Below are positions 1-33,184 of a stretch of DNA of 33,281 nucleotides, piece after piece (the first letter of the stretch is position 1; each line of letters opens with the position of its first letter). The position numbers were made by a program, and so were the translations under genes. Source of the DNA: Chromatiaceae bacterium. Lineage in GTDB: Bacteria > Pseudomonadota > Gammaproteobacteria > Chromatiales > Chromatiaceae. The notes under the pieces are model-generated. The model saw nothing but the letters and a program-made list of their open reading frames with translations, was not told the DNA's origin and ran no database searches. The stretch is taken from the NCBI GenBank assembly GCA_028277465.1, contig JANQGF010000394.1, positions 1 through 33,281 of the forward strand, in the 5' to 3' direction.

Positions 1-95
1 CGATTCAGAAACAAGTGGTGCAACTTGAGCCGCCCTTGTTGGGCACGCTCCGCTTTGCCCAACCTACGGTGTGTAGGTTGTTTCTGAATCATTAC
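1..95. repeat. 95-bp hairpin repeat, copy 1
   Basis: A perfect 13-bp inverted repeat (GATTCAGAAACAA at 2-14, TTGTTTCTGAATC at 78-90) encloses a second palindrome (GTTGGGCA at 38-45, TGCCCAAC at 56-63) and a small ACCTAC/GTAGGT hairpin (62-67, 73-78). The same 95 bases recur at 33090-33184 with a single difference (G at 68, A at 33157). The inner core resembles the very common intergenic palindromes of Gammaproteobacteria. It has no coding capacity and is probably a MITE-like or REP-like element. The window begins exactly where identity to copy 2 begins, so the element may extend further left. Confidence 0.85.
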
Positions 96-14524: not shown

Positions 14525-15016
14525 ATGCTGAAAACCGCGCGCGACTATCTCCACAGCCTGCTCCTGATGGAGCTGCTCAAGGGGCTGAGCCTGACCGGTG
14601 GCTACCTCTTCAAGCGCAAGTTCACGGTTCAATACCCGGAAGAGAAGGCGCCCATCTCGCCGCGCTTCCGAGGTCTGCACGCCTTGCGCCGCTATCCGAA
14701 CGGTGAGGAGCGCTGCATCGCTTGCAAGCTCTGCGAGGCGGTCTGTCCGGCGCTGGCCATCACCATCGAGGCCGAGCCTCGGGCAGACGGCTCGCGTCGC
14801 ACCACGCGCTATGAGATCGATCTCTTCAAGTGCATCTACTGTGGTTTCTGCGAGGAGTCCTGCCCAGTCGACTCGATCGTCGAGACCGGCGTCTACGAAT
14901 ATCACTTCGAGAATCGCGGTGAGAACATCATGACCAAGGACAAGCTGCTCGCCATTGGGGACAAGTACGAGGCGCAGATCGCCGCGGCCCGCTCGGCTGA
15001 CGCCCCCTATCGCTAA
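14525..15016 (+). CDS. nuoI: NADH-quinone oxidoreductase subunit I (clusters N6a, N6b)
   Basis: A 163-residue 8Fe ferredoxin-type subunit. Two complete CxxCxxCxxxC motifs are visible: C64, C67, C70, C74 ([11 protein letters not shown]) and C103, C106, C109, C113 ([11 protein letters not shown]), with the crossed prolines P75 and P114 that end each motif. The N-terminal amphipathic helix ([18 protein letters not shown]) contacts NuoH. The start is ATG 14525 with GGAG at 14513-14516. A 213-bp gap, unusual for this operon and filled by inverted-repeat units, follows before nuoJ. Confidence 0.97.
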
Positions 15017-15099
15017 GACCGCGTCCAGAGGTCAGCGACGGTGTCTTCAGTGAAATGCGCCTTTTCGAAGCCATTGGGGCGGCGGCGCTGGACGCGGCC
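15017..15099. repeat. GACCGCGTC inverted-repeat unit A (nuoI-nuoJ gap)
   Basis: An 83-bp unit that starts right after the nuoI stop codon. It is bounded by GACCGCGTCCAG (15017-15028) and CTGGACGCGGCC (15088-15099), which match as an inverted repeat in 11 of 12 positions. No coding potential is seen. The same termini occur in unit B and at 21297-21381. The left end of A and right end of B also pair over 13 of 14 bases, so A+B could instead be one 205-bp element. Confidence 0.6.
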
Positions 15100-15139
15100 C
15101 AAATGACAGAGACGTCGGGAGATCGGATGCTTGAATCCT

Positions 15140-15221
15140 GAACCGCGTCAGCGAGAACCTTCAATCGGCGGCTATGAAACTGCTTTCACCAATCACTCCG
15201 CATATCACTCTGGACGCGGTT
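15140..15221. repeat. GACCGCGTC inverted-repeat unit B (nuoI-nuoJ gap)
   Basis: An 82-bp unit with termini AACCGCGTC (15141-15149) and GACGCGGTT (15213-15221), separated from unit A by 40 bp with nothing recognisable. It ends only 8 bp before the nuoJ ATG. The nuoJ start therefore has no Shine-Dalgarno sequence where one is expected. Confidence 0.55.
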
Positions 15222-15229
15222 TAATCATC

Positions 15230-15883
15230 ATGGGCTTTGAAAAGTTTCTTTTCTATCTCTTCGGGGCAATAACCCTATGGTCCGCAGGGATGGTCATCAC
15301 GCGGCGCAACCCAGTGCACGCGGTCCTCTTCCTGGTGCTCGCCTTCGTCACGAGCGCGGCACTCTGGATACTGCTCGAGGCCGAGTTCCTGGGCATCGTC
15401 CTGGTCCTGGTCTATGTGGGCGCCGTCATGGTGCTCTTCCTCTTCGTGGTGATGATGCTCGACGTGGACATCGCGACCCTGCGTGCCGGCTTCATCCGCT
15501 ATCTGCCTCTGGGTGTGCTCATCGCGGCGGTGATGGCGGTCGAGATCCTGCTGATCGTGGGTCCGGGCAACTTCGGGCTCGCCGCCTTTCCGCCCCCTGA
15601 GCCGGCCGCGGCCGATGCGAGCAACGCCCAGGAGCTCGGTTACTTGCTCTATACCCTCTACGTCTATCCGGTCGAGATCGCGGCCGTCATCCTGCTCGTG
15701 GCGATCGTCGCTGCGATCCGGCTGACGCTCCGTCGCCGGCCCGATACCAAGTATCTGGATCCATCCCAACAGGTGCGCATCAAGAAGGGACCGGACCGGA
15801 TCCGACTCGTCAAGATGGCCGCGGAGGACGCCGTCGCGCTCCCCGCGGGCAGGGCCCCGAAGGAAGAGGAAGGGACGGAATGA
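15230..15883 (+). CDS. nuoJ: NADH-quinone oxidoreductase subunit J
   Basis: A 217-residue membrane subunit with about five helices; helix 3 of this family contains the pi-bulge that rotates during turnover. Family features: [29 protein letters not shown] near the N-terminus and [21 protein letters not shown] (the [10 protein letters not shown] segment). The C-terminus is hydrophilic and basic. The ATG at 15230 gives the normal N-terminus; an in-frame extension through repeat unit B is not conserved-looking. It overlaps nuoK by 4 bp (ATGA). Confidence 0.96.
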
Positions 15884-21299: not shown

Positions 21300-21381
21300 A
21301 CCGCGTCTGGAGTGACAAGCGTTGCGTTCCAGGTGAGTCCAGCCGCCTGGTGAACAGGAGCCATCGGTGGGACGCGGTCTA
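21297..21381. repeat. GACCGCGTC inverted-repeat unit C overlapping the nuoN stop
   Basis: A perfect 11-bp terminal inverted repeat, TAGACCGCGTC (21297-21307) and GACGCGGTCTA (21371-21381), bounds 85 bp. The termini match units A and B in the nuoI-nuoJ gap, while the interior does not align by eye. The nuoN stop codon lies inside the left terminus. As RNA it would form a stem right after translation ends and might act as a 3' stabiliser or weak terminator. Confidence 0.65.
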
Positions 21382-21540
21382 GCCATTTCGGGGCTGCCGC
21401 TTCCCGTCGATATTCCGCCAAGAGCCGCTGGACAAACACGCAGCCTCACCCAATGAGGTGCGACCATATGCGCTTCTTCTGATCGAGCCGATGCTGCGCG
21501 GCGAGGAGCTGAGCGCAGCGACCATTGACGACATCCAGGA
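21382..21540. other. Unassigned spacer, possible gene remnant
   Basis: About 160 bp between unit C and the tandem repeats. One plus-strand frame is open for some 50 codons without a start (for example EVRPYALLLIEPMLRGEEL) and runs into the repeats. I do not recognise it. It could be the tail of a decayed gene or chance in GC-rich DNA. Confidence 0.25.
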
Positions 21541-21636
21541 CCGTAGGCTGGGGTGAGGCACCGACCGTAGGCTGGGGTGAGGGACGAACCGTAGGCTGGG
21601 GTGAGGGACGAACCGTAGGCTGGGGTGAGGCACGAA
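21541..21636 (+). repeat. Four tandem 24-bp repeats
   Basis: Four consecutive 24-bp units (21541, 21565, 21589, 21613) share the core CCGTAGGCTGGGGTGAG and end in variants of GSACGAA. The second and third units are identical. Two more units lie at 21748-21795. The units are adjacent with no spacers, so this is not a CRISPR. Each unit is also the left arm of a hairpin with TTCACCCCAGCCTACG further on. Confidence 0.95.
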
Positions 21637-21727
21637 CCCCAGCATCTTCGTTCGGCACCGAAGAGCCCACGCGGCAAGGTGGCCGCCGACCATGCTGGGG
21701 TTCACTCTCGTTCACCCCAGCCTACGT
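21637..21727. repeat. 91-bp palindromic module, copy 1
   Basis: CCCCAGCAT (21637-21645) pairs with ATGCTGGGG (21692-21700), and the end TTCACCCCAGCCTACG pairs back with the preceding 24-bp unit, making a nested cruciform. A copy at 21796-21886 differs at 5 of 91 positions. The core resembles the widespread CGTAGG...CCCCAGC intergenic palindromes of Gammaproteobacteria. Confidence 0.9.
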
Positions 21728-21747
21728 TACTCGCGTTCACCCCAGAA

Positions 21748-21906
21748 TCGTAGGCTGGGGTGAGGGATGAACCGTAGGCTGGGGTGAGAGACGAACCCCA
21801 GCATCTCCGTTCGGCGCCGAAGAGCCCACGCGGGAAGTTGGTCGCCGACCATGCTGGGGTTCACTCTCGTTCACCCCAGCCTACGTCGCTTGCGTTCAGC
21901 ACATCC
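21748..21906. repeat. Second copy of a 159-bp tandem duplication
   Basis: Two 24-bp units (21748-21771, 21772-21795), the 91-bp palindromic module (21796-21886) and a 20-bp tail repeat the block 21589-21747 in the same order with the same spacing. The tail is less conserved than the module. This is a direct tandem duplication of a hairpin-rich unit, later diverged. Confidence 0.88.
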
Positions 21907-22143: not shown

Positions 22144-23280
22144 ATGTCACTGAGCGGTGAGCGCTTCACTGCGGTCTATCGGATCGCCTGCCCGCCGCAG
22201 GAGGCGGAGGCGCGGGCCCGTGCGATCTGTATCGAGCAGACCGTCGAGTTTCCGGAAAGACTGATCGAGGATGCGGCGATCCGCGAGCAGGTGATCGGAC
22301 ACCTGGCCTGGCTCCAAGCGGTCGGTCAGGACCGCTTCGAGGCGGCGATCCAGTATCCGGTCGAGGCGGCCGGGCGCGAGCTGACCCAGCTTCTCAATGT
22401 CCTATTCGGGAACATCAGTCTCGCGCCGGGCGTGCGCTTGGTGGGATTCGATCTGTCGCCATCACTGGCGAGCCAGTATCCAGGTCCGCGCTTCGGCCAG
22501 ACGGGACTGCGCGACCTGGTCCAGGTGCCTGACCGACCCTTGCTCTGCACGGCCCTCAAGCCCATGGGGCTCTCGCCAGGTGAGCTCGCGGCGCTCGCCT
22601 ATCGCTTGGCGCTCGGCGGCATCCATCTGATCAAGGACGATCATGGGCTCAGCGATCAGTCTTTCTGTCCCTTCGAGGAGCGTGTCGAGCGCTGTGCGGA
22701 GGCGGTCGCGCGGGCCAGTCGCGAGACTGGCCAGACCTGTCTCTATCTGCCCAATGTCACGGCCCCGGCGGACGAGATCACGATGCGCGCGCAGTTTGCC
22801 AAGGCGGCGGGTGCCGGTGGGCTGCTCTTCTGCCCCGGGCTCTCGGGCCTGGACGCCATGCGTGCCCTGGCGGCCGATGAGGGCCTGGCGCTGCCGATCC
22901 TGAGCCACCCCGCCTTTCAAGGCGCCTATTGTCTGCACCCGGATTCGGGACTCTCGCATGGCGTGCTCTTCGGCCAGCTCAACCGGCTCGCCGGTGCCGA
23001 TGCCGTCATCTTTCCGAACTGGGGCGGTCGGTTCGCATACACCCAGGCGGAATGTCGCGATCTGGTCGCGGGGGCGACCCGCGACATGGGCTCGGTGCGG
23101 CCCATCTTTCCCGTTCCGGCGGGCGGCATGCGGTTGGACCGTGTCCAGGAGCTCCGTGAGTTCTATGGACGCGACTGTATACTGCTCATCGGTGGCGATC
23201 TGCATGCACAGGGACCGGATCTGGTCGCGAGCTGTCGCCGCTTTGCAGATCTCACGGTCGGTTTCCCCGATCAATGCTGA
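22144..23280 (+). CDS. Form IV RuBisCO-like protein, probable methylthioribulose-1-phosphate isomerase type
   Basis: A 378-residue RuBisCO large-subunit homologue, shorter than carboxylating forms (about 460-475). Active-site equivalents: K139 ([10 protein letters not shown], loop of K175 in true RuBisCO); K164, D165 and D166 in LIKDDHGL, where H167 replaces the metal-binding Glu204; H255 in SHPAF; the GG phosphate loop PAGGM (325-329). Loss of the Glu and absence of the loop-6 Lys pattern argue against CO2 fixation. The KDDHGL motif and length resemble the R. rubrum RLP, which isomerises 5-methylthioribulose 1-phosphate in S-methylthioadenosine salvage, rather than the Chlorobium type with KDDE; that assignment is from memory of the family. 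It is a single gene, with no other salvage gene here. Its 3' end overlaps mutM by 10 bp tail to tail. Confidence 0.88.
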
Positions 23281-33089: not shown

Positions 33090-33184
33090 CGATTCAGAAA
33101 CAAGTGGTGCAACTTGAGCCGCCCTTGTTGGGCACGCTCCGCTTTGCCCAACCTACAGTGTGTAGGTTGTTTCTGAATCATTAC
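33090..33184. repeat. 95-bp hairpin repeat, copy 2
   Basis: 94 of 95 bases identical to 1-95 and in the same orientation. It carries the same 13-bp terminal inverted repeat (33091-33103 and 33167-33179) and inner GTTGGGCA/TGCCCAAC palindrome. It lies between two inverted copies of the 159-bp TIR element, 2 bp before the start of the second. Confidence 0.9.

Follow-up and report, generated by a model that had tools for sequence, protein, structure and literature searches.

Probable ancient insertion of a MITE-like Chromatiaceae repeat between nuoI and nuoJ

In the window, by which we mean the whole 33,281-nucleotide stretch of Chromatiaceae DNA analysed here, nuoI ends at position 15016 and nuoJ starts at 15230, leaving a gap of 213 bp (15017-15229) that holds, as had been predicted from the letters of the DNA, two inverted-repeat units of about 80 bp (Table 1). 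The predicted unit size of 82-83 bp agrees with ours once one flanking base per side is counted in, and the second unit does end 8 bp before the nuoJ ATG, or 8-9 bp by our reading. It likewise holds that the remaining nuo junctions overlap or measure at most 49 bp, the latter value belonging to nuoF-G and nuoM-N, and to describe nuoJ as lacking a Shine-Dalgarno sequence is fair, since nothing beyond a bulged duplex of -4.2 kcal/mol is found. The outermost 13 bp at the two ends of the element are perfect inverted repeats of each other. A further unit of this family stands alone 3' of nuoN, and is absent from that position in G131 and Thiobaca.

Table 1. Features of the nuoI-nuoJ junction and the related unit after nuoN, in window positions.
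Feature	Position	Strand	Description
nuoI	14525..15016	+	ORF, NCBIfam NuoI; TAA stop abuts the element
Left unit (unit 1)	15018..15098	.	ACCGCGTC...GACGCGG; orthologous units in L083, L084 and G131
Left-unit arms	15018-15025 and 15091-15097		ACCGCGTC and GACGCGG, read from the sequence
Outer terminal inverted repeat, left copy	15018..15030	+	ACCGCGTCCAGAG, direct reading
Inter-unit spacer	15099..15141	.	AT-rich in relatives and young copies; eroded here
Right unit (unit 2)	15142..15220	.	ACCGCGTC...GACGCGGT; orthologous units in L083, L084 and G131, and more weakly in L089
Right-unit arms	15141-15149 and 15213-15222		AACCGCGTC and GACGCGGTTT
Outer terminal inverted repeat, right copy	15208..15220	-	CTCTGGACGCGGT, direct reading
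nuoJ	15230..15883	+	NCBIfam NADH-quinone oxidoreductase subunit J; ATG 8-9 bp past the right unit
Solitary unit, same family	21300..21378	.	Directly after the nuoN stop codon; CTAG on both sides

The termini of these units had been expected to recur genome-wide on dispersed inverted-repeat units, and they do. In the 4.31-Mb draft genome of the window, the pattern ACCGCGTC-N(10-70)-GACGCGGT finds 61 exact-end copies, against 2 for a control in which the same pattern is reversed, so the repeat lies far beyond chance; the family ends are TAAACCGCG, and copy counts hinge on exact ends. The usual copy is a composite of 181-188 bp, in which a unit of about 79 bp is followed by an AT-rich spacer of about 29 bp and then by another unit in reverse orientation. 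In a set of 39 composites most borders read YTA-A...T-TAR; the left-hand base is C in 26 of the 39 and the right-hand base G in 33. Such C-TA...TA-G borders fit insertion at CTAG with duplication of TA; no base-exact empty site proving the duplication was found. Among copies gathered by an internal motif, mismatches numbered 3/392 in the outer arm (one of its eight positions falling inside the motif), 16/392 in the inner arm and 107/1911 in the interior. The outer arm having the fewest, the outer ends appear to be what movement requires.

Exact-ended units (TAAACCGCGTC...GACGCGGTTTA) were present in 17 of the 146 Chromatiaceae genomes, with a maximum of 168 copies. By this count the window genome has 41 units, Thiobaca trueperi (G032) 102 and the complete 5.02-Mb genome G131 50; four genomes of the genus that includes Thiocapsa hold 48-168 and a fifth 0, one further genome of the family holds 13, and the remaining ones 0-2. 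Across a class-wide sample of 369 genomes such units occurred only in the window's own genome, with none in the 365 genomes outside the family; a plasmid collection gave no match to the element, and no description of the repeat family was found in the open-access literature. We are apparently dealing with a MITE-like family that is limited to Chromatiaceae and undescribed so far. Composites and single units alike are short and non-coding and carry no transposase gene, terminal inverted repeats are present (perfect over 13 bp in the window, with outer ends conserved in young copies), and dispersed copies are many (61 here, 0-168 in relatives).

Both units are also found between nuoI and nuoJ in Thiocystis sp. 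Loclat (L083), T. minor (L084) and G131 (L188); Thiobaca (L089, L192) has the right unit alone at this junction. When 606 units, mostly from four genomes, were compared, the three Thiocystis-type nuo copies took the top three places among the matches of the window's right unit; for its left unit the nuo copy of G131 came first. Orthology of the Thiobaca unit is weaker by sequence: it ranks seventh from the window's unit, and second from the G131 unit among units outside the Thiocystis trio. These unit-level matches favour one single insertion at nuo. The presence of the same element in the same gap of other genera indicates that we are not looking at a recent mobile break of the operon. The original prediction had named two findings that would count against it, a gap sequence conserved across genera as a non-mobile region and a lack of the termini elsewhere in the genome; the former conservation does exist, at the same junction in the Thiocystis trio and partly in Thiobaca, but the family is of a mobile type with many copies. 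A comparison of the genome's own copies with element loci sampled from G131, Thiobaca and a Thiocapsa-type genome turned up a single additional shared site (L067/L239); this comparison took in part of the copies of those genomes, and we do not claim nuo to be exceptional.

We therefore consider it probable that the gap holds an ancient, fixed insertion of the repeat that entered between nuoI and nuoJ in a common ancestor of the window's source, the Thiocystis-type species and Thiobaca. Directly visible are the dispersed copies, the two-unit form, the CTAG/TA-type borders, interiors that drifted around conserved arms, and the occupation of one and the same junction by the element in four genomes and by one of its units in a fifth. 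The element would be non-autonomous, moved by a cut-and-paste transposase recognising its ends; at nuo it would be transcribed within the operon mRNA, its arms forming stem-loops just before nuoJ, and these stems may have been kept by selection, or by one arm serving repeatedly as the template for correcting the other. The patchy copy numbers among related genomes (0-168) count for such an insertion. Counting against it are the fixed unit length combined with free interiors, which is unusual for a MITE, the failure to find a base-exact empty site or, among the loci examined, a transposase with matching ends, and an element-free Chromatium clade. The family adds to the small mobile repeats one limited to Chromatiaceae, and a copy fixed in a core respiratory operon across genera makes the retention of a MITE for its stem ends testable.

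Arms and interiors of the nuo copy have evolved very differently. Between the window and T. minor, the arms are identical at 34 of 34 positions and the interiors at 74 of 126 (Fisher P 2e-7), with 12 of 34 in the spacer. Interior identity of about 60% is close to that of fourfold-degenerate sites in nuoI and nuoJ (0.61), so the interiors behave like neutral sequence and the arms do not. The nuo arms of Thiobaca differ by one paired change, CCGCATC/GATGCGG; among the sampled loci of that genome the variant is confined to the two arms of the nuo element, with the usual letters in 53 other arms. On the best reading, the stem ends of the family are under constraint; arm conservation independent of end-based selection of copies was measured solely for the nuo copy and for those gathered by the internal motif.

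We tentatively entertain, as a minority possibility, that the element was domesticated at nuo, where its RNA stem-loops would set the processing or stability of the nuoJ-N mRNA or access to the start site, and selection would have kept the arms. Its position suits this role: the predicted stem-loops sit between the peripheral-arm and membrane-arm genes, directly 5' of nuoJ, and in each of the five genomes 2-9 nt separate the 3' arm of the right unit from the nuoJ ATG. The preservation of arms over a distance at which interiors drifted, and the Thiobaca paired change, unseen in its other sampled arms, point the same way, and there is precedent in the Correia and ERIC elements, which cause cleavage of mRNA by RNase III or RNase E (PMC10969869). 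Related species, however, do without the element: Chromatium, T. violacea DSM 207 and Imhoffiella have a 12-13-bp spacer in its place, and the Thiocapsa gap, about 170-212 bp long, is unrelated to it in sequence. No promoter-like or intrinsic terminator-like site was detected in the gap, and the arms are conserved family-wide, so nothing special about the nuo copy is required.

For the earlier suggestion that translation of nuoJ-N, or processing of its mRNA, relies on the repeat, these comparisons give no proof. The nuoJ Shine-Dalgarno is weak (-3.0 to -5.5 kcal/mol) in every tested relative, with or without the element, and the nuoI-nuoJ gap, which in 78 related loci ranges from 9 to 351 bp (median 68 bp), exceeds 100 bp in 31 of them, mostly without the element; other relatives have gaps of 9-50 bp. 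It is as a rule the longest of the four junctions tested (the nuoJ-nuoK median is -4), and the long gaps of relatives indicate that the junction tolerates inserts. A search with Rfam covariance models gave no match at gathering score and otherwise chance-level matches only. Regulation of nuoJ-N by the element is possible and unproven; any effect on expression is a guess and probably modest, given the relatives that have no such element.

The behaviour of the units as a family suggests another, doubtful, explanation, in which units would be selected as paired arms at a fixed spacing around a free interior, as a structure-recognised hairpin or two-site element whose nuo copy was kept for function. 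A hypothetical protein would then read a single-stranded DNA, cruciform or RNA form. The distance from CCGCG to CGCGG is 74-79 in 117 of 118 units, picked for intact ends from four genomes, although a far wider range was permitted, and thinned interiors are barely alignable (0.46 identical, against 0.38 in shuffled sequence). Using 68 thinned units chosen solely by TAAACC...GGTTTA, we found that arm position 9 pairs in 64 (TA in 53, CG in 11), against a mean of 45 and a maximum of 54 in 5000 shuffles; many of the CG units resemble one subfamily, so that independent events may be few. Pairing between the arms ends after position 10. A conserved RNA fold inside the unit was rejected, as interiors fold no better than shuffles (mean z -0.34) and consensus folding returns the arm stem only. 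Fixed length, paired arms and free interiors point to recognition by structure or spacing.

Arms might also stay paired without selection, through replication template-switching in which one inverted arm is copied onto the other. This mechanism is known to homogenise the arms of inverted repeats and to produce paired changes (PMC8794818), and here arms do pair while interiors drift. We regard it as unlikely: the arms are also nearly unchanged in sequence across genera, the loops of about 60 nt contrast with the 4-nt loops enriched in that study, inner arms of young copies decay unpaired (the 16/392 mismatches above), and the fixed unit length would be left unexplained.

A similarly small probability attaches to several lineages each having received their own insertion of the family at one and the same site between nuoI and nuoJ. 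The element-free Chromatium clade and the Thiocystis trio form one group in a nuoH-K tree, set apart from the rest with a support of 100, which requires either clean loss in Chromatium or more than one insertion; the placement of the window genome and Thiobaca in this tree is weakly supported. The length of nuoI-nuoJ gaps relative to the other tested junctions also leans towards repeated insertion, as does the Thiobaca copy, whose match to an unrelated Thiocapsa unit is slightly closer than its matches to the nuo copies. Against this stand the unit-level matches, in which right and left units of the window, out of 606, find nuo copies first.

Returning to the ancient MITE-like insertion, we compared the element with known systems. 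By analogy it would work like a MITE, with the RUP and Correia elements nearest in kind. RUP of Streptococcus pneumoniae, a 107-bp MITE, is likewise short and non-coding, with about 100 dispersed intergenic copies, inverted-repeat ends and TA-containing target sites (PMC2229807). Its ends match those of IS630-Spn1 (PMC2229807), whereas the Chromatiaceae element found no partner at the examined IS630-type loci; it also differs in that its usual copy joins two units, with four short arms in all, and in its very variable interiors. The Correia or NEMIS elements of Neisseria are also small dispersed MITEs (PMC2229807, PMC10969869), whose transcribed ends form stem-loops within mRNAs, as is predicted here; the Chromatiaceae element differs from them in sequence and architecture, and the nuo gap has no promoter-like site.

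No transposase sharing the element ends was found among the IS630-type loci and the listed ends of G131. The only IS630-type locus in the genome (L163) and 29 further loci in 10 related genomes had no matching end pair. A 1.1-kb end pair in G131 was rejected as an autonomous element, because it is a composite whose spacer has taken up an IS982-like insertion: at L217 (G131:C1:492192-493326) an IS982-like transposase gene, so labelled from its translated sequence and not by a profile search, lies within the AT-rich spacer of a two-unit element. GTAG- or CGTC-tagged REP elements are likewise palindromic, mostly intergenic and frequently arranged as inverted pairs 20-100 bp apart (PMC3733652). 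That the element is a REP/BIME repeat mobilised by a Y1 (RAYT) transposase is nevertheless highly improbable, in spite of the paired inverted units in an intergenic gap and the Y1_Tnp proteins in 10 of the 12 genomes searched, because the units are of about 79 bp with a 10-11-bp stem, loops of about 60 nt and TA-type borders instead of 20-40-bp palindromes with small loops and a GTAG or CGTC end (PMC3733652), none of the 10 Y1 loci examined has paired family ends, and Y1 genes also occur in element-free genomes. An integron attC-like site, suggested by unit length and paired ends, was rejected by eye, the GTTRRRY core being absent.

Several further observations concern the repeats and the junction. 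Composites L050 and L054 are each short of one unit, with the break falling exactly at a TA, as would follow from a precise loss, and composite L019 carries another repeat, with ends GGCGATT...AATCGCC, inserted at a TA. Window positions 1-95 and 33090-33184, at the two contig ends, are 99% identical; inverted repeats near these stretches carry AGGCGATTGCCGG-type ends, and such a repeat occurs in L019 and beside several other composites. Three Thiocapsa species (L087, L090, L095) share a nuoI-nuoJ gap of similar sequence, about 207-211 bp long and without the element, in a genus that nonetheless holds genomes with many family copies. The 218-bp gap of a Thiorhodovibrio MAG (L137) looks by eye like a putative HicB-like reading frame. 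Behind nuoN, window positions 21535-21903 hold copies of a different, 24-bp repeat (GTAGGCTGGGGTGAGG) and a 159-bp duplication, and downstream of the nuo operon, positions 22144-23280 encode a protein with a RuBisCO large-chain catalytic domain.
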